Below are positions 44,948-55,524 of a stretch of 64,000 bases of DNA, one piece after another. This DNA comes from Desulfobacterales bacterium. Its GTDB lineage: Bacteria > Desulfobacterota > Desulfobacteria > Desulfobacterales > Desulfosalsimonadaceae. The stretch's first letter is position 1; each line of letters opens with the position of its first letter. Location: assembly GCA_034520365.1 (NCBI GenBank), contig JAXHNP010000003.1, forward strand, positions 124,001-188,000, written 5' to 3'. The notes under the pieces are model-generated. The model was not told the DNA's origin. It made no database searches and saw only the letters and a list, made by a program, of their open reading frames with translations. The position numbers and the translations under genes are program-made.

Positions 44948-45442
44948 TTAGATGTAGATTTCCTTCTTGTCTGTGCTTTCCATGGATTTTTTAAGTGCCT
45001 CGTAACTTTCCTGCAAATCTTTTTTCATTTTTTCCCAGGCCTCAGCAGAATTCTTTTTCATTTGCGAAAGTTTTTCCTTCAGGACCTCGCGTTTTTCCTT
45101 CATTGTTTTCAGGGTTTCCTCCGCCTTCTCACGCGCCTGCTTATCCATTTCATCCCACCTGGACTGCATCTCCTGCCTGAACGATGAAATCCGTTGATCC
45201 GCCTCGTCAAGCGCTGTTTTGGCCTTATGCATGAATTCATCCTTCTGCTGACCGGCATAATTTTTCACGGCTTCCGCCGCCTCATTCGCCTCCTTCTCCA
45301 CATCCTTCAGGCTGGTTTCAGGGGCGGCTCCCTTGCTGGTTTGTTTCTCGGATTCGGCATTGCTGCACCCTGAAAAACCAACCCATAAAACCAAAAAAAC
45401 AATAACGCCTGCCAAAAACGTACGCCTCCATTGCCTGCCCAT
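44948..45442 (-). CDS. coiled-coil lipoprotein leading the mrp operon
   Basis: 164 aa. A basic N-terminus, hydrophobic stretch and lipobox-like VGFSGC (Cys26) predict a lipidated protein. The rest is almost wholly helical and rich in Lys, Glu and Ala (DEADQRISSFRQEMQSRW, KTMKEKREVLKEKLSQMKK), like a long coiled coil. It resembles no enzyme I know. It has an AGGAGA ribosome site and its own promoter, and ends 2 bp before mrpA. It may be an envelope partner of Mrp or simply the operon leader. Confidence 0.75.
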   Translation of the reverse strand: MGRQWRRTFLAGVIVFLVLWVGFSGCSNAESEKQTSKGAAPETSLKDVEKEANEAAEAVKNYAGQQKDEFMHKAKTALDEADQRISSFRQEMQSRWDEMDKQAREKAEETLKTMKEKREVLKEKLSQMKKNSAEAWEKMKKDLQESYEALKKSMESTDKKEIYI

Positions 45443-45487
45443 TTTCAGTCTCCTGTCAAATTGTGGATTTAAATTTAATTGCCCTAT

Positions 45488-45516
45488 AAGATATCCTCAA
45501 AATACAAACTTTTCAA
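45488..45516 (-). promoter_or_regulatory. sigma-70-type promoter of the lipoprotein-mrp operon
   Basis: Minus-strand TTGAAA (plus 45516-45511), a 17-bp spacer and TATCTT (plus 45493-45488), about 45 bp upstream of the lipoprotein ATG. The mobile element described at 45536-46104 starts only 20 bp upstream of the -35. Confidence 0.55.
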
Positions 45517-45525
45517 GAAATCGGC

Positions 45526-45535
45526 GGCTTGTTTC
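45526..45535. repeat. left 10-bp target-site duplication
   Basis: GGCTTGTTTC directly abuts the left terminal inverted repeat and is repeated exactly at 46105-46114. Confidence 0.85.
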
Positions 45536-45585
45536 CACGGCTAATTTGTTCTAACGCCAAATCCATACCCCCGGTCCTGTTAACG

Positions 45586-46038
45586 CTAAGGTTGGGATTC
45601 GTTTTCTTCGCTATCGGGATCGAAATCGGGATCGAAATCGCTATCGGGATCGAAATCGACGCTGTAGACTTCCTGATCCTCTCGAACTTGGTATCCTCTT
45701 CCGCCGAGACGGCTGAGCATCGCGGCCATACGGTCGAGTTCATCCTTGCGGTTCCGGCTTTCCATCTTGTCCAGCGCCTTGCCGACAACCAGCACATCTT
45801 GAATCGCCGCGCACTCAAGCGCGGAGCCACGAGCGATTTCGAAATAACGCCTTCGGTCGGCTTCCGCGGTCTTGCCATTACCTTCGGCGATATTGAGCGG
45901 TATCGACTGGCTGGCCCGAAGCCATTGATCCCGGGCGGGCCGATGGACTCCGTTCAGGCTGTCGGCCTTCTCGTAAACCCATGCAACATAGCCTATTGAA
46001 AGGCGATAGACGTCCAGTTTTTCGTGTCCAAGGGTCAT
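45586..46038 (-). CDS. four-helix-bundle protein, S23/IVP family (copy 1)
   Basis: 150 aa. The core (MTLGHEKLDVYRLSIGYVAW, then QSIPLNIAEGNGKTAEADRRRYFEIARGSALE) is the signature of the S23 family, first seen in intervening sequences of 23S rRNA genes and related to retroelement accessory proteins (Avd). Function is unknown; the fold is thought to bind nucleic acid. The C-terminal tail from about residue 128 is an Asp-x repeat (DFDPDSDFDPDFDPDS) encoded by the GATNNN hexamer array. 113 of the first 121 residues match the copy at 52396. It is the sole cargo of the surrounding element and reads towards mrp. Confidence 0.88.
   Translation of the reverse strand: MTLGHEKLDVYRLSIGYVAWVYEKADSLNGVHRPARDQWLRASQSIPLNIAEGNGKTAEADRRRYFEIARGSALECAAIQDVLVVGKALDKMESRNRKDELDRMAAMLSRLGGRGYQVREDQEVYSVDFDPDSDFDPDFDPDSEENESQP
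45608..45655. repeat. hexamer array at the 3' end of S23 copy 1
   Basis: Eight tandem TCGNNN units on the plus strand (TCGCTA, TCGGGA, TCGAAA in mixed order), which on the gene strand read GATNNN and encode the Asp-x tail. The array at 46045-46086 has the opposite orientation, so the two can pair around the gene. Confidence 0.9.
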
Positions 46039-46044
46039 ATTTTT

Positions 46045-46086
46045 TCGATTTCGATCCCGATCCCGATAGCGATTTCGATTTGGATA
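46045..46086. repeat. hexamer array upstream of S23 copy 1
   Basis: About seven 6-bp units on the plus strand (TCGATT, TCGATC, CCGATC, CCGATA, GCGATT, TCGATT, TGGATA), starting 7 bp upstream of the gene. They are the reverse complement type of the 45608-45655 array. Confidence 0.88.
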
Positions 46087-46104
46087 CAGAACAAATTAGC
46101 CGTG

Positions 46105-46114
46105 GGCTTGTTTC
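46105..46114. repeat. right 10-bp target-site duplication
   Basis: GGCTTGTTTC directly after the right terminal inverted repeat; exact copy of 45526-45535. Confidence 0.85.
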
Positions 46115-46225
46115 TTTGCTTGCCGGTAATAGGCAAACAATGATAATTTAGATTGAGGGATAAGGTTTTTAAAGATTTGAAACGCCCCACCTGGGCAGGA
46201 TTTTCTCAGACAGGATTTTTTTTTG

Positions 46226-47641
46226 ATGGGCACTTCACAGCAACCTGAGACCTTTGATGTGGTTATCGTTGGCGGCGGACCGGCCGGCCTGTTTGCCGCC
46301 TATTACCTGTCCATCCATTCAGACTCAAGCGTTCTGCTTCTGGAAAAGGGCAAACCGCCCCGAAACCGGAAATGCCCCATGGAAAAATCCGGCGAATGCC
46401 TGAAATGCGAGCCGTGCCAGATCCTCTCCGGTATCGGCGGCGCCGGGCTGTTTTCGGACGGAAAACTCAATTTTATCGCCAAACTCGGCAAAACCGATCT
46501 GACCCAGTTTCTCCCGGTCAGCCAGGCGGATGAACTGATCCGGGAAACGGAGACGATTTTTAACATCTTTGGCATGGACGGGCCGGTTTTTCCATCAAAC
46601 ATGGACGCCGCCCGGGTTATCCGGCGGGATGCCAAAAAACTCGGGATGGATCTCTTGATTATCAAGCAGAAGCACCTGGGCAGCGACTGTCTGCCGGGCT
46701 ATATCAGCCGAATGATGGCGGAACTGGAAAACCGGGTGACGATACATACCGCAGAGGCGGTAACAGAGATCGGGATTTTAGCGGACGGGAAAAAACAGGT
46801 CAGCACGGACAAAAATGAATATATTGCAGACAATGTAATTCTTGCCCCCGGCCGGGTGGGGGCGGAATGGATGGGAGAGACGGCCCGGAAATTCAGCCTG
46901 GGCATGAGCCAGCGCGGTATCGAGGTGGGGGTCCGCGTGGAGGTGCACGGGGACATCACCCGGGACCTCTGCAGCATTATCTATGATCCGGTCTTTTTTG
47001 TTCAGACCGGCAAATACGACGATCAAACCCGGACCTTCTGCACCAATCAGGGCGGCTATGTGACCCAGGAATTCTACCGGGACTTTGTGTGCGTAAACGG
47101 CCATGCCTATTCGGATAAAAAGTCGGAAAACGCCAATTTTGCCTTTCTCTCCAAGGTGGTGCTGACCGATCCGGTAACAGACAACCAATCCTATGGGGAA
47201 TCCATCGGCCGCCTGGCCACCCTGATCGGCGGCGGCAAACCCCTGCTTCAGCGGTTCGGGGATCTAAAACGCGGCCGCCGGAGCACCTGGCCGCGGATTC
47301 GGAAAAGCTACATCGAGCCGACCCTTAAAAATGTGGTTTGCGGTGATATCGCCATGGCCCTGCCGGAGCGGCTCCTCACCAATGTCATAGAAGGGTTGGA
47401 GAAGCTTAACCAGGTGGTGCCCGGGGTGTCAAATGACGAGACCCTGCTCTATGCGCCGGAAATCAAGTTCTTTGCCACCCAGATTGAAACCTCCAGGGAA
47501 CTTGAAACCCGCATTCCCGGACTTTTTGTGGCCGGCGACGGCCCGGGGGTCGCCGGAAACATCGTATCTGCGGCCGCCACAGGGCTTATTCCGGCCAAAG
47601 CGATCACCCGGCGGATGTCAGATAACCCAGAATCCCGTTGA
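46226..47641 (+). CDS. FAD-dependent oxidoreductase, COG2509-like
   Basis: 471 aa from the ATG at 46226. FDVVIVGGGPAGLFAAYYLS binds the FAD ADP moiety. A cysteine-rich segment follows (KCPMEKSGECLKCEPCQILSGIGGAG), typical of this uncharacterised dehydrogenase group and perhaps an Fe-S or redox site. GVRVEVHGDITRD is a conserved middle block and LFVAGDGPGVAGNIVSAAATG closes the FAD domain. Substrate unknown. The ribosome site is poor (AGGA 10 bp upstream followed by T9). The 3' end overlaps the convergent MBL gene by 38 bp. Confidence 0.85.
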   Translation: MGTSQQPETFDVVIVGGGPAGLFAAYYLSIHSDSSVLLLEKGKPPRNRKCPMEKSGECLKCEPCQILSGIGGAGLFSDGKLNFIAKLGKTDLTQFLPVSQADELIRETETIFNIFGMDGPVFPSNMDAARVIRRDAKKLGMDLLIIKQKHLGSDCLPGYISRMMAELENRVTIHTAEAVTEIGILADGKKQVSTDKNEYIADNVILAPGRVGAEWMGETARKFSLGMSQRGIEVGVRVEVHGDITRDLCSIIYDPVFFVQTGKYDDQTRTFCTNQGGYVTQEFYRDFVCVNGHAYSDKKSENANFAFLSKVVLTDPVTDNQSYGESIGRLATLIGGGKPLLQRFGDLKRGRRSTWPRIRKSYIEPTLKNVVCGDIAMALPERLLTNVIEGLEKLNQVVPGVSNDETLLYAPEIKFFATQIETSRELETRIPGLFVAGDGPGVAGNIVSAAATGLIPAKAITRRMSDNPESR

Positions 47642-48473
47642 TGGAATTCCGGGTAAAGTGACGCTCGCGGTCATAAATGGCCGGCGGCAGTTCATGGATT
47701 TGATGATAAATGGGATCCCGCGCCGTCAGGTCCTCGATAATGGCCTCCATATCCGGATTTTGCGCGTGCCCGCGGATAATATCGATCCATAATTGGAGCT
47801 GATCCCGGGCCAGGCACAAAATTTGCATGCCGTCCGGGTGGTTCCCGTAATGGGCGAACCGGAGGGTGCGGTGAATGTGCGGCGTAATTTCATCCATGGA
47901 TCTAAAAAAGGCATCCGCGACAAACCGGGGCGGGGTGGCCGGCCGCAGATAAATCCGGCCGCCCAGATCCTGGAAAATCCCGAACAGCTCGCCGCAGAAA
48001 AGCTCGTCGTCAAACACGAAACAAAGATGGTGCGGGGCATGGCCGGGGGTGTCAACGGCCCGGATGCCGCCGGCGAAATCAATCTGGTAATCCGACGAAA
48101 CCCGATCCTCGGGCACCGGCTTGATCTCGCCGTAAACTTCCGCCACATGGCCCAGGGTTTTAAGTGAGCCTTCCCACAGACGGGCCGGATCGATCAGGTG
48201 CGGCACCGCCTTTTCATGGCAGACGATCGTTGCCTCCGGAAACCGCTCTGCCATATGCCCGATGCTTCCCGCATGATCCATATGGATGTGGGTTAAAAGG
48301 ATCAGATCCAGTTTGTTTACGCCCCGCGCCGCCAGAGCCTCGCACAGACGGTCAACGGTGCAGGTCGGACCGGGATCGACCAGAAAGGCGCCCGCCCCGC
48401 CCTGATAGACCCAGGCGGAAATAAACCGGGTATAGCCCAGGGACGGTATGTCGAGATCAATTAAATTAAGCAT
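47604..48473 (-). CDS. MBL-fold metallo-hydrolase
   Basis: 289 aa from the ATG at 48473. The metal site LTHIHMDHAGS (HxHxDH) lies near residue 65, a later His in DTPGHAPHHLCFVFDD and the final His in RFAHYGNH complete the dinuclear ligands, as in glyoxalase II-like hydrolases. The C-terminal part is helical and may bind a partner. The start lies within the stop codon region of the upstream thioredoxin-like gene (ATGCTTAA), so the two are translationally coupled. Substrate unknown. Confidence 0.87.
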   Translation of the reverse strand: MLNLIDLDIPSLGYTRFISAWVYQGGAGAFLVDPGPTCTVDRLCEALAARGVNKLDLILLTHIHMDHAGSIGHMAERFPEATIVCHEKAVPHLIDPARLWEGSLKTLGHVAEVYGEIKPVPEDRVSSDYQIDFAGGIRAVDTPGHAPHHLCFVFDDELFCGELFGIFQDLGGRIYLRPATPPRFVADAFFRSMDEITPHIHRTLRFAHYGNHPDGMQILCLARDQLQLWIDIIRGHAQNPDMEAIIEDLTARDPIYHQIHELPPAIYDRERHFTRNSINGILGYLTSAG

Positions 48474-49425
48474 AAGCCGCCATGGCCTCCTTGGCCGCCT
48501 CCTTGACCAGATCCGAGTAATCACCCGCCAGCACGGCTTCTATCTTCGGCCGGGCTTCCGGATGGGCGGTTTCGCCAAAAAGATAAAGGATATCCGCCTT
48601 AACCGGTTCATCAAGCTCTTCAAACTCCTCCCACAGGGCGTTTACCACCTCAGCGATCAAATCCTGCCGGTGTTCACCCAGATATTCCACCGTGGCCATG
48701 GCCCCCAGCCGTACCGGCCACTCCGTATGGGTAAGGAGGCTGTATATGCCGGGAAACACCTTGCCCCAGTCCGCCATCATTTTGGCCAGATCCGAGGCTT
48801 TGCCGTCATAGAGGATCTGCTTGAGCGTCTCGCTGCTAAGCTGGGCCGGATCCCGGTTGACCAGAATATCGATGAGTTCCGGCAGCTCCACATTGCCGGC
48901 CCAGCGGAACTGATCATCCAGAAACACCGTGGGCACGGAACTGACTTTATCTGCAGCCGCTTTTTCCGGGAACATGGTCCCGTCAATTATCACCAAATGG
49001 ATCATTTCCTGATGCATGGCCAGGGAAGCCAGCGATTGGACGGTCTGGGGACAGAAGTGACATTCCGGGCTGATATAGACTTTTAAGATCGCCGGCATGC
49101 TGATTTTTTCCAGAACATCCGTGTCCGCGAGATGCCGGGCCTGGGCTTCTTTGGTAAGGCCGGAAAGAATTTCAAGAAACGGCTTTAGTTCATGGCCCTG
49201 CGGCACGGCCTGATAGGTAATATTCGGCTGTATCCGGATTTCGGGCAGTGAATCATCCGCCTCATATTCGGTCCCGATCCGGACCGCCGGGGCCAGGGTT
49301 TCCATCCGGTCCGCAAACTCCCGAAAATCCTCGCTCCGGTTGTCCTGGCTTAAAAATATCCGTATGGAGCGGGGATTTTCCGTTTGCCGGGCCCATTCCG
49401 AAATGACTGTCTCATCGTTTGCCAT
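48466..49425 (-). CDS. thioredoxin-like protein with tandem Trx folds and helical repeats
   Basis: 319 aa. The first about 100 residues resemble a Trx-like fold without a CxxC, the second (about 110-195) has CHFC in VYISPECHFCPQTVQSLA and SSVPTVFLDD with the cis-Pro. This tandem pattern resembles the AhpF N-terminal domain or protein disulfide oxidoreductase. The C-terminal 110 residues look like HEAT-type helices (WPVRLGAMATVEYLGEH, EPVKADILYLFGET). Coupled to the MBL gene. Role probably thiol redox; partner unknown. Confidence 0.8.
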   Translation of the reverse strand: MANDETVISEWARQTENPRSIRIFLSQDNRSEDFREFADRMETLAPAVRIGTEYEADDSLPEIRIQPNITYQAVPQGHELKPFLEILSGLTKEAQARHLADTDVLEKISMPAILKVYISPECHFCPQTVQSLASLAMHQEMIHLVIIDGTMFPEKAAADKVSSVPTVFLDDQFRWAGNVELPELIDILVNRDPAQLSSETLKQILYDGKASDLAKMMADWGKVFPGIYSLLTHTEWPVRLGAMATVEYLGEHRQDLIAEVVNALWEEFEELDEPVKADILYLFGETAHPEARPKIEAVLAGDYSDLVKEAAKEAMAAYA

Positions 49426-49463
49426 TAATTATATTCCTTGTTTTATTCCAAAATATTACGCCC

Positions 49464-49502
49464 CTGTCATTCCGAGGAGCGTAAGCGACGAGGAATCTTA
49501 AG
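49464..49502. repeat. dispersed REP-like sequence
   Basis: Contains TGTCATTCCGAGGAGCG and CGACGAGGAATCTTAAG. From memory, close relatives of this sequence occur as intergenic repeats in many unrelated bacteria. Only one copy is in this window. Confidence 0.45.
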
Positions 49503-49601
49503 GTTTCTCGCTGCCGCTGTTCCCGGTAGCTGTAACGAATTTCCGGACAAATGACAACATGAATGTTTCGCAGCCACCCGGTTAACAAGCTATTTTATAG
49601 T

Positions 49602-49629
49602 TTTACATCGCCGGCATAAATGTTATTAT
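49602..49629 (+). promoter_or_regulatory. sigma-70-type promoter of speD-speE
   Basis: TTTACA (49602-49607), a 16-bp spacer and TATTAT (49624-49629), about 40 bp upstream of the GTG start of the SAM decarboxylase gene. Confidence 0.5.
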
Positions 49630-49670
49630 ATAAAAATTTAGCAAGGATTTATCTATAAGGAATCTAAAAA

Positions 49671-50615
49671 GTGACTGCCCAGTTTGAAGGACCGGAAAAA
49701 AAACTCGAAATCATCCTGTCCCGGCCTATCGCGGGGCTGCGCAGCAATGCGGACGGCCGATGGGATCGGATCGTCAGGGCGAGCGGCTCCTGGATTATCA
49801 GCACCGCCGCCACACCGGTGATGGATGCCTATCTGCTGTCCGAATCCAGCCTGTTCGTCTGGGAAGACCGGATTCTTTTGATCACCTGCGGCCAGACCAG
49901 CCTGATTGACACCATCCCGGAAATTTTACAGATGGTGGACAAATCGGATATGGCCTTTGTCTTCTATGAGCGCAAGAACCTGATGTATCCGGAATCCCAG
50001 CTCTCGGATTTTGAAATCGAGGCCGCCTGGATTTCCAAGTTTTTTCCCGGTAAAAGCTATCGGCTGGGACCGGCCAATGATGATCACGTGCATATATTTT
50101 ACTCATCCCATGCATCGATCACCACAGATGAGGATATTACCCTGGAACTTTTGATGCATGATCTTAATCCGGATGCCATGCGGGTTTATACACCGGAAAA
50201 CGGACAGACCGCTGATGGGGTTGTCAGGCAGACCGGAATGGACACCCTTTATCCGGACATGAGCATTGACGCCTATCTGTTTGACCCCTTCGGCTATTCT
50301 TTAAACGCGATTGCCGGCAACTCATACTTTACGATACATGTCACGCCACAGTCCACGGGCTCTTACGCAAGCTTTGAGGCCAACCGGGTGGAGGGCGACT
50401 ATATGGAGCTGGTCAAGCGGGTGCTGGACATCTTTCAGCCCGCTAAATTCAGCTTTGTACTGACCAGTTCGGTAACGGACCAGCATCTGTCCGCAGCCGC
50501 CCCGCTGCCCGACCGCATCAACGGGTTCCGCCCGACAGAGAAGAGCATATATGAACTGGACTGCGGGTATCAGGTCAGATATTCAAACTTCATCCGTTCA
50601 CAGGAACAGGTATAA
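49671..50615 (+). CDS. speD: S-adenosylmethionine decarboxylase, eukaryotic type
   Basis: Makes decarboxylated SAM, the aminopropyl donor for spermidine. 314 aa, the length of the eukaryotic (class 2) single-chain proenzyme, not the 115-265-aa bacterial forms. FEGPEKKLEI has Glu6 and Glu9, matching human Glu8 and Glu11. LSESSLFV holds the predicted self-cleavage site Glu58-Ser59, which gives the pyruvoyl cofactor. Cys73 (ITCGQT), Ser210 and His223 (TIHVTP) match the remaining catalytic residues. GTG start. Followed directly by spermidine synthase. Confidence 0.92.
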   Translation: MTAQFEGPEKKLEIILSRPIAGLRSNADGRWDRIVRASGSWIISTAATPVMDAYLLSESSLFVWEDRILLITCGQTSLIDTIPEILQMVDKSDMAFVFYERKNLMYPESQLSDFEIEAAWISKFFPGKSYRLGPANDDHVHIFYSSHASITTDEDITLELLMHDLNPDAMRVYTPENGQTADGVVRQTGMDTLYPDMSIDAYLFDPFGYSLNAIAGNSYFTIHVTPQSTGSYASFEANRVEGDYMELVKRVLDIFQPAKFSFVLTSSVTDQHLSAAAPLPDRINGFRPTEKSIYELDCGYQVRYSNFIRSQEQV

Positions 50616-51502
50616 TGGACACACTTGATTTATGGGTCAGGGAGACCCATCAGGACGCGGTGGCACTTAGTTTTAAGGTGGAGGAAACGCTTTTTTCCGG
50701 CAAAAGCCCCTTTCAGCAGGTCGATATTGTCAAAACCAAAGACCACGGGGCCATGCTTCTAAATGACGGCATCATCATGGTCTCGGAGCGGGATGAGTAC
50801 GTTTATCACGAAATGATCGCCCATGTCCCGCTGTTTGTCCATCCAGACCCCGCCCGCGTGCTGGTCATCGGCGGCGGTGACGGCGGAACGGTCCGCGAGG
50901 CGGTCAAGCACGATGCGGTCTCCCGGGTGGTCATGGTGGAAATTGATGAGATGGTGGTTAATGCCTGCCGGCAGCACATGCCGTCGATCAGCCATGCCCT
51001 GGATGACCCGCGGGTGGAGCTCATCATCGGCGACGGGGTAAAATTCGTGGCATCCACGGATGAAACATTCGATGTGGTGCTGATCGATTCCACCGACCCC
51101 ATCGGCCCGGCCGCGCCCCTGTTTGACCGCCAGTTCTATCAGAATGTGGCCGCGCTGCTGTCAGATAACGGCATCATGATCTCACAGGCGGAATCACCGT
51201 TTTACGATTTTAATATCCAGTCTTCCATGCTGGCCAATCAGCGGCCGTTTTTCAACCGGCTGCACATGTACACCTTTACCAACCTGACCTATCCCGGCGG
51301 TCTCTGGAGCTTTGGATTCGGGTCCAAAACCCTTTGCCCGCTGGCGGATTTCGATCCGGCCCGAACCGGGAACACCGCCATCCAAACGCAATACTATACG
51401 CCGGAAATTCATATTGCCGCATTCATGCTGCCCCGATTTGTGCAGCAGCATCTATCCGGGCGGCTGGATCCGCTGCCCCCGATTCAAGCGGCCGCTATTT
51501 AA
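50615..51502 (+). CDS. speE: spermidine synthase
   Basis: Transfers the aminopropyl group from decarboxylated SAM to putrescine. 295 aa. VLVIGGGDGGTVREAVKH is the SAM-binding loop, VEIDEMVVNACRQHMP follows, and VVLIDSTDPIGPAAPLF contains the gate-keeper Asp. EYVYHEMIAHVPLF is conserved. The ATG overlaps the speD stop by one base, so the two enzymes are co-translated. Confidence 0.95.
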   Translation: MDTLDLWVRETHQDAVALSFKVEETLFSGKSPFQQVDIVKTKDHGAMLLNDGIIMVSERDEYVYHEMIAHVPLFVHPDPARVLVIGGGDGGTVREAVKHDAVSRVVMVEIDEMVVNACRQHMPSISHALDDPRVELIIGDGVKFVASTDETFDVVLIDSTDPIGPAAPLFDRQFYQNVAALLSDNGIMISQAESPFYDFNIQSSMLANQRPFFNRLHMYTFTNLTYPGGLWSFGFGSKTLCPLADFDPARTGNTAIQTQYYTPEIHIAAFMLPRFVQQHLSGRLDPLPPIQAAAI

Positions 51503-51548
51503 AAACCCCAAATTTAAGGAGGCCACCGCCTGACGGTGAGATAATTTT

Positions 51549-52232
51549 ATGAGCATTAACACGGTGCGTACCATCGACAACCTAGTGCCGGTTAGGCACA
51601 TACTGGTCAGCGTATCAGACAAAAACGGCCTGGACACCCTGATCCCCGAACTTCTCCGGCTCTGTCCGGAAGTAAAAATCCTGTCAACCGGCGGCACTTA
51701 CAAAAAAATCGCGGCCCTGCTGGATGATTCCGCTGCCGGCACCCTGATTCCGGTGTCCGAGTATACCGGCCAGCCCGAAACCCAGGGCGGTCTGGTAAAG
51801 ACCCTGGATTTTAAAATCTATCTGGGCCTTTTGACTGAAACTTACAATGATGCGCATCAGGGCGATCTGGCCCGAACGGGCGCCGTGCCTGTTGACATGG
51901 TGATCGTCAACCTCTATCCCTTTCAGCAGACCGTCGCCCAGCCGGATGTCACGGTGGAATCCGCCCGGGGCAACATTGATATCGGCGGTCCCTGCATGAT
52001 CCGGGCAACTGCCAAAAATTTTATCCGGGCGGCGCCGGTGGTGGACCCGGCGGACTACCCCATGATTCTGGATGAACTCCGGAGCACCCGGGGCCAGACG
52101 ACTCTTGAGACCCGCGCCATGCTGGCCAAAAAGGCGTTTTCCCATACGGCCGAGTATGACCACGCGATCACCGAATACCTGCGAAGCTGCTCCATTGATG
52201 AAATCAGGCAGGCGTATCCGGATATTCGATGA
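51549..52232 (+). CDS. purH: IMP cyclohydrolase domain of PurH as a separate protein
   Basis: Cyclises FAICAR to IMP, the last step of purine synthesis. 227 aa. It covers only the N-terminal MGS-like domain of the usual 510-530-aa bifunctional PurH: HILVSVSDKNGLDTL, LSTGGTYKKIAA, PETQGGLVKTLDFKIYLG and VDMVIVNLYPF, GGPCMIRATAKNF. The protein ends with a natural-looking helix and stop. The formyltransferase half is encoded by a separate gene 724 bp downstream, after the S23 gene. Confidence 0.9.
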   Translation: MSINTVRTIDNLVPVRHILVSVSDKNGLDTLIPELLRLCPEVKILSTGGTYKKIAALLDDSAAGTLIPVSEYTGQPETQGGLVKTLDFKIYLGLLTETYNDAHQGDLARTGAVPVDMVIVNLYPFQQTVAQPDVTVESARGNIDIGGPCMIRATAKNFIRAAPVVDPADYPMILDELRSTRGQTTLETRAMLAKKAFSHTAEYDHAITEYLRSCSIDEIRQAYPDIR

Positions 52233-52354
52233 TAATAGAGGCACTAAGGCACTAATATTTGGCAGCCTTGCGACAAACACCCAATGGAAGGCTAAAGCCT
52301 TCCGCTACATAGTTTCCGGCAATAAACAAAATCTGTATAATAATTGTTGGGGCC

Positions 52355-52390
52355 ATCGAAATCGAAATCGGGATCGCTATCGGAATCGAC
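52355..52390. repeat. hexamer array upstream of S23 copy 2
   Basis: Six ATCGNN units (ATCGAA twice, ATCGGG, ATCGCT, ATCGGA, ATCGAC) ending 5 bp before the gene. Complementary in type to the array at 52789-52824. Confidence 0.88.
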
Positions 52391-52395
52391 GCATC

Positions 52396-52842
52396 ATGAC
52401 GCTAGGACACGAGAGACTTGACGTTTACCGTCTATCGATCAGCTACGTGGCCTGGGTATACGAAAAGGCCAAGGGGTTGAACGGCGTCCATCGTCCCGCA
52501 CGGGACCAATGGCTTCGCGCGAGCCAGTCGATCCCGCTGAACATCGCCGAGGGCGACGGCAAGACCGCCGACGCGGACAGGCGGCGCTATTTTGAGATTG
52601 CGAGGGGCTCCGCGCTAGAATGCGCCGCCATTCAGGATGTTCTGGTTGTCGGCAAGGCGCTGGACAAGACCGAGAGCCGGAGCCGCAAAGACGAACTCGA
52701 CCGCATGGCGGCGATGCTCAGCCGACTGGGCGGAAGAGGATACCAGGTTCGGGAGGATCATACATTCTATGGCCAGGAGGCTACAGGCGATTTCGATCCC
52801 GATAGCGATAGCGATTTCGATTTGGACGGAGAAGGAAAGTAG
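52396..52842 (+). CDS. four-helix-bundle protein, S23/IVP family (copy 2)
   Basis: 148 aa from the ATG at 52396 (MTLGHERLDVYRLSISYVAW). Same family and same layout as the copy at 45586: 113 of the first 121 residues are identical, then a diverged tail ending in Asp-x repeats (DFDPDSDSDFDLD). In the first 20 codons 15 differ from copy 1 but only two change the amino acid, so both are old copies under protein-level selection. It lies between the two purH genes on their strand. I found no terminal inverted repeats of the element C type around it. Confidence 0.87.
   Translation: MTLGHERLDVYRLSISYVAWVYEKAKGLNGVHRPARDQWLRASQSIPLNIAEGDGKTADADRRRYFEIARGSALECAAIQDVLVVGKALDKTESRSRKDELDRMAAMLSRLGGRGYQVREDHTFYGQEATGDFDPDSDSDFDLDGEGK
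52789..52824. repeat. hexamer array at the 3' end of S23 copy 2
   Basis: Six GATNNN units (GATTTC, GATCCC, GATAGC twice, GATTTC, GATTTG) translated as Asp-x pairs. Confidence 0.9.
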
Positions 52843-52846
52843 TCCC

Positions 52847-52895
52847 AACCAAGCGTTCCAGGCGACGCTTGACAGCGCGCCTGAACGCATAGGTT
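52847..52895 (+). other. attC-like imperfect hairpin after S23 copy 2
   Basis: AACC (52847-52850) and GGTT (52892-52895) form an outer pair. A short unpaired spacer follows, then GCGTTCCAGGCG (52853-52864) pairs with CGCCTGAACGC (52878-52888) with one bulged C, and CGC/GCG extend it. Outer box, spacer, inner stem and extrahelical bases are the plan of integron attC sites, but the outer boxes do not match RYYYAAC and GTTRRRY. Confidence 0.35.
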
Positions 52896-52900
52896 CTAAC

Positions 52901-52942
52901 GGTGAACGGTGAACTGTGAACTGTGAAGTATGAACGATAAAC
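52901..52942. repeat. 7-bp tandem repeat before the AICAR formyltransferase gene
   Basis: Six units: GGTGAAC, GGTGAAC, TGTGAAC, TGTGAAG, TATGAAC, GATAAAC, ending at the AGGAG ribosome site of the next gene. Confidence 0.8.
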
Positions 52943-52956
52943 AGGAGTGAATAGAT

Positions 52957-54207
52957 ATGACTAACGATATCAAACAGATGTATAAAACCATCATGGATGA
53001 TCATTTTCCGCCCCGGATGGAGATCAGTTTTGTGGACGACAATAACCGGCAGACCCTTTATTACGAAAAGGTGGACTGGGTAATCGAAAACGTCCGGAAA
53101 GGGCTGCGCTACGGGGAAAACCCGGGCCAGGAGGCCGCCCTGTACCGGCTGATAAACGGCAATCTGGTTCTGGGCGAAACCCGGAGCATTGCCCCGGGAA
53201 AGCATCTGGTATCTGATGCCGAGCTTCTGCAGTCCGGCAAGCATCCGGGAAAGACCAACCTCACGGATGCGGATAATGCCTTAAACATCCTGCGGTATCT
53301 CACGGACAAGCCCGCGGTGATTATCGTCAAGCACAACAACCCCTGCGGCGCGGCCACATCCGGGAATCTGGCGGATGCCTATCACAAGGCCTACATGGCC
53401 GACCGGGTGGCGGCATTTGGCGGCTGTATCGCCGTTAACCGGGCTCTGGATACGGAAACCGCCGCAGCCATCGCCGATCAGTATGCCGAAGTAGTGGTGG
53501 CCCCGGAATTCGAGGACGGCGTAATCGACATCCTCGCCCGGCGCAAAAACCTGCGGGTGATCCAGATTCAAAACATCGAACAGCTCCAATCCTTTGCCGC
53601 CCAGCGGGTGGTGGAGTTTAAAAGCCTGATTGACGGGGGGCTCATTACCCAGTGGTCCTTTGTCCCGAATGCCCGCTCCAAAGCTGACATGCAGCTGGCC
53701 CAATGCGAATACAAGGGCACGCATTACAAAATTTCGCGGGAACCCACGGAACAGGAATATGCGGATATTCTTTTCGGCTGGCTGCTTGAGTCCGGGGTGA
53801 CTTCCAATTCCGTGATTTATGTAAAAAACGGGGTCTCGGTCGGCATCGGCACCGGCGAGCAGGACCGGGTGGGGGTAGCGGAAATCGCCCGCGACAAGGC
53901 CTACCGGAAACTGGCGGACCGCTATTGCTTTGAGACCCACGGGCTTGCCTACAACAACCTGTCAGATCCGGATAAAAAGGCGGAGATTGACGCCCGCGTA
54001 AAAGACGAAAACGGCGGATTGATCGGGGCGACCATGATCAGCGATGCCTTTTTCCCCTTCCGGGACGGGGTGGATGTGGGCCTGCGGGAAGGGATAACCG
54101 CCGTTGCCCAGCCGGGCGGCTCCTTAAATGATTACCAGTCCATCGAGGCCTGTAACGAGGCCGATGCCACCATGGTCTTTACCGGACAGCGAAGCTTTAA
54201 ACACTGA
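52957..54207 (+). CDS. purH: AICAR formyltransferase domain of PurH as a separate protein
   Basis: Formylates AICAR to FAICAR using 10-formyl-THF. 416 aa, corresponding to the C-terminal domain of bifunctional PurH plus about 50 extra N-terminal residues (from MTNDIKQMYKTIMDDHFPP). LRYGENPGQEAALYRL, VIIVKHNNPCGAATS with the catalytic Lys-His, DRVAAFGGCIAVNR, and DAFFPFRDGVDVG are intact. It has its own AGGAG site, so it is an independent gene, not an insertional remnant. The PQQ-propeller gene overlaps its stop. Confidence 0.92.
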   Translation: MTNDIKQMYKTIMDDHFPPRMEISFVDDNNRQTLYYEKVDWVIENVRKGLRYGENPGQEAALYRLINGNLVLGETRSIAPGKHLVSDAELLQSGKHPGKTNLTDADNALNILRYLTDKPAVIIVKHNNPCGAATSGNLADAYHKAYMADRVAAFGGCIAVNRALDTETAAAIADQYAEVVVAPEFEDGVIDILARRKNLRVIQIQNIEQLQSFAAQRVVEFKSLIDGGLITQWSFVPNARSKADMQLAQCEYKGTHYKISREPTEQEYADILFGWLLESGVTSNSVIYVKNGVSVGIGTGEQDRVGVAEIARDKAYRKLADRYCFETHGLAYNNLSDPDKKAEIDARVKDENGGLIGATMISDAFFPFRDGVDVGLREGITAVAQPGGSLNDYQSIEACNEADATMVFTGQRSFKH

Positions 54208-55372: not shown

Positions 55373-55524
55373 CACGGTAAATTTGTTCTATCTATTTTTC
55401 AGGCGGGCACGGTGGCCCGCCCTACGCGACAATGCCGACATTTTGTAGGGTCGGCCACCGTGCCGACCTCACATGCGAGAAACCCCATGGTTATGGGGTT
55501 GTTCGCCAGAACAAATTCACCGTG
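55373..55524. mobile_element. MITE-like hairpin element (element B)
   Basis: 152 bp bounded by CACGGTAAATTTGTTCT (55373-55389) and AGAACAAATTCACCGTG (55508-55524), inverted repeats with one mismatch. The 10 bp outside are ACGCGTCCCC (55363-55372) and GCGCGTCCCC (55525-55534), a direct repeat with one mismatch. Inside are three hairpins: GGCGGGC/GCCCGCC (55402-55421), GGTCGGC/GCCGACC (55449-55468) and AACCCCAT/ATGGGGTT (55481-55500). The first two recur in the element at 38189-38284. No gene. Confidence 0.8.

Follow-up and report, generated by a model that had tools for sequence, protein, structure and literature searches.

In a 64,000-nucleotide stretch of a Desulfobacterales genome (hereafter the window), two genes encoding S23 proteins each lie between short tandem arrays that are inverted relative to one another. 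What are such arrays, and do they belong with the gene? An earlier sequence-only reading of this DNA had proposed that gene and arrays form a single functional unit, kept together although the genes are old. We followed up this proposal starting from the second locus, copy 2, which has three parts:

52355..52390, + strand: 5' array of copy 2, six ATCGNN hexamers before the start codon (direct reading, Tandem Repeats Finder, periodicity scan)
52396..52842, + strand: S23 gene of copy 2 (23S_rRNA_IVP, four helix bundle), 148 aa, PF05635 and TIGR02436
52788..52823, + strand: 3' array of copy 2, six units, the inverse of the 5' array, inside the open reading frame

Direct reading confirmed six units upstream (in order, ATCGAA, ATCGAA, ATCGGG, ATCGCT, ATCGGA and ATCGAC) and six inverted units within the 3' end of the gene (CGATTT, CGATCC, CGATAG, CGATAG, CGATTT and CGATTT), the latter encoding, in frame, the protein's acidic D-x tail, ...DFDPDSDSDFDLD.... 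The protein matches PF05635 (E=9e-19; 68.1 bits, cut-off 33.8) and TIGR02436 (E=1e-17; 63.9 bits, cut-off 24), which places it in the S23 family; PF05635 was its only Pfam match, with no Y1 (HUH) transposase domain, and no Rfam family matched window positions 45000-54000. When the whole 64 kb was scanned for periodicities of 6-8 bp, all arrays found were located at one of the two S23 copies or next to it. Genome-wide there are 341 occurrences of the 22-base pattern (ATCGNN)3ATCG but none of its reversed control, so chance is excluded, and every one among the roughly 100 matches listed lies at an S23 copy.

The first locus, copy 1, has a similar layout within a larger element, whose 17-bp ends lie at 45536-45552 and 46088-46104:

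45536..46104, unstranded: ISAs1-type non-autonomous element carrying copy 1, with 17-bp terminal inverted repeats and a 10-bp target duplication
45586..46038, - strand: S23 gene of copy 1
45613..45659, - strand: 3' (coding) array of copy 1
46043..46085, - strand: 5' array of copy 1 (also found by the periodicity scan)

As the sequence-only reading had noted, the two proteins are identical at 113 of 121 core residues, 15 of their first 20 codons differ with only two of these differences altering the residue, and the array units come in a different order. By the NG86 method, dS between the copies is 1.40 and dN 0.041, giving a dN/dS of 0.029, far from one. The differing unit orders also indicate that neither copy's array is a recent duplicate of the other's, and the idea of a single functional unit thus survives both of these challenges.

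Array length varies by whole units between the genomic copies, from 4-7 in the 5' array and from 3-12 in the 3' array, which answers a check proposed in the sequence-only reading. Such variation is what one would expect if the arrays were ordinary microsatellites, made by slippage beside a mobile gene. That explanation was already disfavoured and we consider it very improbable, as slippage yields no mirror-image partner 350 bp away and would neither tie the unit to a protein lineage nor spare particular positions within the unit, both of which we describe below.

We then looked at how the S23 genes are distributed in the 4.33-Mb genome, which holds about 43 S23 copies and a further 5 that are truncated. 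Some 40 copies lie within elements that measure about 550-610 bp (dimers are longer), end in CA(C/G)GGCTAATTTGTTCT...AGAACAAATTAGCCGTG and are bounded at nearly every site by 10-bp target duplications, within the 8-10 bp expected of ISAs1-family miniature elements (MITEs). S23-less elements of about 150 bp with identical 17-bp ends occur at many genomic places, and a frameshifted gene for an ISAs1-family (PF13808-type) transposase (L072:1465-2676, on contig C8 of G000) carries the same 17-bp repeat at its right end. Copy 1 and its kind therefore share their ends with an ISAs1 transposase element, as ISAs1-family MITEs do, although such MITEs normally have no S23 gene. It was likely the L072 transposase that formerly drove the elements carrying S23. 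Another ISAs1-type transposase gene, at L071, is intact, and the window itself contains, at 55373-55524, an S23-less element that has 17-bp ends of the ISAs1 type and is bounded by a nearly perfect target duplication of 10 bp. Elsewhere, an inverted pair of ATCGNN-type arrays has only a few bases and no S23 gene between its members (L078:3184-3272). The S23-carrying element also occurs as a tandem dimer at three loci (L022, L023 and L025), which have one identical junction, and as a truncated dimer at five others (L003, L026, L027, L038 and L044), which share another; as the junctions are identical at several places, it seems that the dimers were copied as such.

The 17-bp ends that had been attributed to an "element C" are thus present at copy 1, but their occurrence on S23-less elements and at a transposase gene identifies them as ISAs1-type terminal repeats, with the S23 unit as cargo. 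For the high copy number in this one genome, it is almost certain that S23 and its arrays are passenger DNA in ISAs1-family non-autonomous elements, given the shared ends and target duplications, the S23-less elements, the frameshifted transposase gene and the near-neutral evolution of the element copies. The same account explains neither copy 2 nor the two other genomic copies without 17-bp ends (L002 and L042), nor any homologue elsewhere. Copy 2 lacks both the 17-bp ends and any visible target duplication, and with these three copies and almost all homologues in other genomes, the claim that the S23 unit can exist without such ends held up well.

The conservation of the gene needed a finer distinction. 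Among the ISAs1-type elements, S23 differs from the consensus at a median of 3 of 363 bases, replacement is near-neutral (0.72-0.74; p=0.29 against neutrality), and three copies have a common stop at codon 80. Between the ISAs1-borne kind and the kind without 17-bp ends, S23 is strongly conserved (mean dN/dS 0.046), and pairs of S23 lineages give values of 0.04-0.36. Purifying selection thus acts on long-lived S23 lineages and not on every copy, since the roughly 40 ISAs1-borne copies evolve near-neutrally among themselves.

If copy 2 did not arrive with an ISAs1-type element, what does its site look like? The gene and its arrays lie between the two parts of a purH-type function, with the following features around them:

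51549..52232, + strand: upstream flanking gene, MGS plus first part of AICARFT/IMPCHase, purH type (Pfam)
52346..52354, + strand: left border GTTGGGGCC, common to the three copies without 17-bp ends (copy 2, L002, L042)
52843..52887, + strand: right border TCCCAACCAAGCGTTCC...CCTGAACG, common to copy 2 and L042, an imperfect inverted repeat
52898..52942, + strand: heptamer array GGTGAAC/TGTGAAC beside copy 2, downstream, with no inverted partner (Tandem Repeats Finder, periodicity scan)
52957..54207, + strand: downstream flanking gene, rest of AICARFT/IMPCHase (Pfam), with orthologues in 28 genomes, G000 included

In 25 relatives from the same family the site is empty, with the two purH-type genes adjoining across a gap of 13-262 bp and no S23. 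On sequence comparison, copy 2 is an insert between two purH-type genes. In two relatives (L299 and L300) this gap holds short gene-less arrays of other units, and the heptamer array downstream of copy 2 is possibly the scar of another S23 unit. The right border shared by copy 2 and L042 looks attC-like, by eye only, and in a check for integron cassettes at copies L001 and L042 the genome yielded no integron integrase above the TIGR02249 cut-off. Copy 2 does not lie in a 23S rRNA helix; its neighbours are the purH-type genes and genes for a spermidine synthase and a beta-propeller protein, with no reverse transcriptase among them. Searches of phages and plasmids found no S23 close to those of the window.

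We next asked how general the layout is. In an array test, we aligned two segments at each gene, the 200 bp upstream and the reverse-complemented gene end together with the 200 bp that follow it, and counted a score of at least 14 as positive; control open reading frames were called mechanically, and many loci came from metagenome assemblies. PF05635 genes are found in 80 of 148 genomes of the window's phylum, where inverted arrays flank 81% of 79 non-redundant S23 genes and 0% of 178 other open reading frames at the same loci. Exchanging array partners among loci gave a rate of 3%, and direct instead of inverted orientation gave 15%. Named genomes from many phyla (Bacteroidota, Planctomycetota, Clostridia, Acidobacteria, Proteobacteria, an archaeon and others) gave 71% of 83 S23 genes against 2% of 331 controls, and viral contigs 78% of 23 S23 genes against 3% of controls; the surveys together gave 2-4% with swapped partners and 12-17% in direct orientation. 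On named plasmids, eight of nine S23 genes had inverted arrays, seven of the eight being cyanobacterial. With search windows that miss arrays more than 200 bp out or deep within the reading frame, no inverted array could be detected at roughly one fifth to one quarter of the S23 genes. The unit has a period of 7 bp in 109 of 141 loci, 8 bp in 23 and 6 bp in 4, which makes the window's S23 family a six-base branch among mostly 7-bp units. We conclude that an S23 gene between inverted 6-8 bp arrays is the general layout, found at about three quarters of relatives across bacteria. Among open-licence papers we found no general link between S23 and arrays; as the search covered these papers only, an earlier description is possible.

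The unit itself varies between loci but matches on both sides of each S23 gene. Restricting the comparison to loci without flank homology, we found a common unit in 84% of locus pairs with at least 70% S23 identity, in 58% of those at 60-70% identity, and in 3-6% of those at 30-60%; none of 999 Mantel permutations reached the observed correlation between unit and protein. The array unit therefore belongs to the S23 lineage, as a cognate sequence, at loci that are otherwise unrelated. This recurrence across phyla, with units specific to lineages, bears out the proposal that gene and arrays work together. Within the unit some positions are fixed and others free (heterogeneity 853, against 557 +/- 31 under the null), with AG and GG the commonest invariant pairs, and 124 of 137 loci have a G-rich upstream strand. 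The median number of units per array is 4.4-4.6. Solved S23 homologues (2gsc and 2rld) have five chains, and XCC0516 is described as a toroidal homopentamer (PMC4990558), making it tempting to think, by analogy, that there may be one array unit per S23 subunit.

S23 units occupy intergenic slots, mostly within operons and in the sense direction. In one genus, a cheY-like and a cheA-like gene (both named from their translations) enclose a slot in which two species (L132 and L144) have one S23 unit and a third (L156) has another. The S23 proteins are 39% identical and the array units differ, the flanks are about 90-96% identical, and the difference runs from the upstream stop codon to just before the next start codon. 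Genomes of that family showed no empty version of this slot; only the three filled loci were found. Upstream of argB, three genera have different S23 genes. In two species of another genus (L108 and L112) the S23 unit is apparently inverted in place, although the L112 assembly has a gap of Ns on one side of the unit.

Arrays also occur without the gene. One genome (G079) has a single S23 gene above threshold, with the unit AGTCCAA, and AGTCCAA arrays at about a dozen further places, several of them as inverted pairs with no S23 between; another (G196) has a similar S23-less set of AGGTTAA arrays. In both, the pairs are cognate to the gene, as in non-autonomous derivatives of the RAYT/REPIN type. 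The S23-less inverted pairs of G079 are 200-400 bp long and scattered over contigs C3, C7, C9, C11 and C37 (L342-L371). Comparisons among loci showed insertion into slots, evolutionary exchange of units between slots, and S23-less derivatives.

S23 genes in cas loci have been noted in the literature. On two cyanobacterial plasmids (L336 and L338), S23 lies between cas6 and cas4 with its own matched arrays, and because it carries these arrays it looks like an insert; these S23 genes may be inserts and not CRISPR partners, and the published association with cas may have come about through insertion. On plasmid pNe_5 of Nostoc edaphicum (L334), an S23 unit lies between nrdB and nrdA-type genes, antisense to both.

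The reading we favour, to which we assign a probability of roughly 0.5, is that the S23 gene and its arrays form a small selfish element in which the arrays would be the cis ends recognized by a ring-shaped S23 protein. To our knowledge, S23 has no nuclease, recombinase or reverse transcriptase domain. A ring-shaped S23 pentamer would bind units of its own lineage, perhaps one per subunit, and bring both array ends of this mobile-like element together; as S23 has no known catalytic domain, the unit would be moved, inverted or exchanged by machinery borrowed from the host. Array pairs without a gene would be non-autonomous derivatives. In the window's genome the S23 unit also hitched onto an ISAs1-type element and was amplified about 40-fold. 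Several points speak against this reading: no excision or transposition was seen, copy 2 has no visible target duplication, S23 has none of the domains just named, a fraction of S23 genes showed no arrays, the L108/L112 inversion borders on an assembly gap, and the difference between L132/L144 and L156 could reflect homologous replacement through the flanks.

The main rival is that the element acts at the level of RNA. The arrays would pair in the operon transcript with the S23 open reading frame in the loop, RNase III would cut the stem and leave the host operon unharmed, and the arrays would be kept as an RNA stem with S23 as an RNA-binding protein. The Coxiella intervening sequence, with an S23 open reading frame in the loop of a 28-bp stem that RNase III cuts in vitro and heptamers (GACAGAT) upstream of the S23 start codon, offers a precedent (PMC4990558). 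Where neighbouring genes are codirectional, S23 runs in the same direction in 84 cases and in the opposite one in 12, which favours an RNA-level element, but sense may simply be the less harmful orientation. Selection for RNA pairing would also predict an excess of G-U-compatible mismatches between the arrays, and because there is none (138 versus 155, p=0.35), this result counts against it. With S23-less pairs and the apparently inverted unit needing some other explanation, we regard this account as rather unlikely on its own, and it and the selfish-element reading could both be true of one element.

The fixed and free positions of the units are also what binding sites have, and S23 might be a sequence-specific regulator of itself or of its operon, with the scattered arrays as its regulon. 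Paired octamer and heptamer arrays on opposite strands in Geobacter metallireducens were proposed as sites of a global regulator (PMC2700814). Units differ between S23 genes of one genome, however, the neighbouring genes are unrelated (purH, cheY/cheA, argB, cas and nrd), and slots are empty or otherwise filled in sister species, all of which makes a regulatory role improbable.

The selfish-element reading can be set against several known systems. S23 proteins (PF05635) are very common, and we know of no function for them although their ring structure has been solved. The closest known kind of element is the intervening sequence in 23S rRNA of Leptospira, Coxiella, Brucella and Xanthomonas, which has a PF05635 protein in common with the units described here and, like them, an open reading frame between complementary ends. 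The units here differ in lying between protein-coding genes instead of in rRNA, in having tandem arrays as ends with a unit that follows the S23 lineage, and in the S23-less pairs scattered in the genome. RAYT/REPIN systems combine a gene, short inverted repeats on either side of it that are cognate to the encoded protein, and non-autonomous repeat pairs elsewhere in the genome, and S23 units resemble them in these respects; RAYT is a tyrosine transposase, whereas S23 has no transposase domain, and its tandem 6-8 bp arrays contrast with the single palindromes of RAYT/REPIN. Copy 1 and about 40 others are alike with ISAs1-family MITEs in their ends and duplications, and copy 2 has neither. Avd of diversity-generating retroelements is homologous to S23, likewise a four-helix bundle, and acts together with nucleic acid (PMC10053308), but copy 2 has no adjoining reverse transcriptase and the retroelement layout does not include flanking inverted arrays. 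In the Coxiella intervening sequence, the number of heptamers upstream of the open reading frame varies between strains (PMC4990558).

Heptameric repeats are known from Xanthomonas and Nostoc (GGGAATC, GGGGAYT), Beggiatoaceae (TAACTGA) and the Geobacter metallireducens sites, and excerpts of these reports give 186 heptamer arrays in Xanthomonas Xcc, mostly of four units, with 70 inverted pairs (PMC4692102, PMC4679880, PMC2700814). In the same excerpts they are intergenic and tandem like the S23 arrays, often forming inverted pairs in Xanthomonas, and are not linked to an S23 gene. By analogy, we propose that the heptameric repeats of Xanthomonas, Nostoc, Geobacter and Beggiatoaceae may originate from S23 units. 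A broader reading, which we rate at slightly less than even odds, is that S23 genes constitute a separate and nearly ubiquitous class of bacterial selfish elements, with archaeal and viral-contig members, defined by a ring protein without a catalytic domain, two inverted cognate arrays of 4-5 heptamers, and non-autonomous pairs. This class could be the source of many over-represented prokaryotic heptamers, and 23S rRNA intervening sequences would be members that landed in rRNA.

The correspondence between gene and repeat, with each S23 lineage having a unit of its own, makes the function of S23 testable by binding, and the link between S23 and arrays offers an origin for heptamers that were reported separately in four groups of bacteria. 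Intervening sequences in 23S rRNA can be viewed as one special case of S23 units. Where an S23 gene lies within an operon, as between cas6 and cas4, it should not be read as a functional partner of that operon. Taken as a whole, the S23 layout suggests a genetic element that has been overlooked and is probably mobile.
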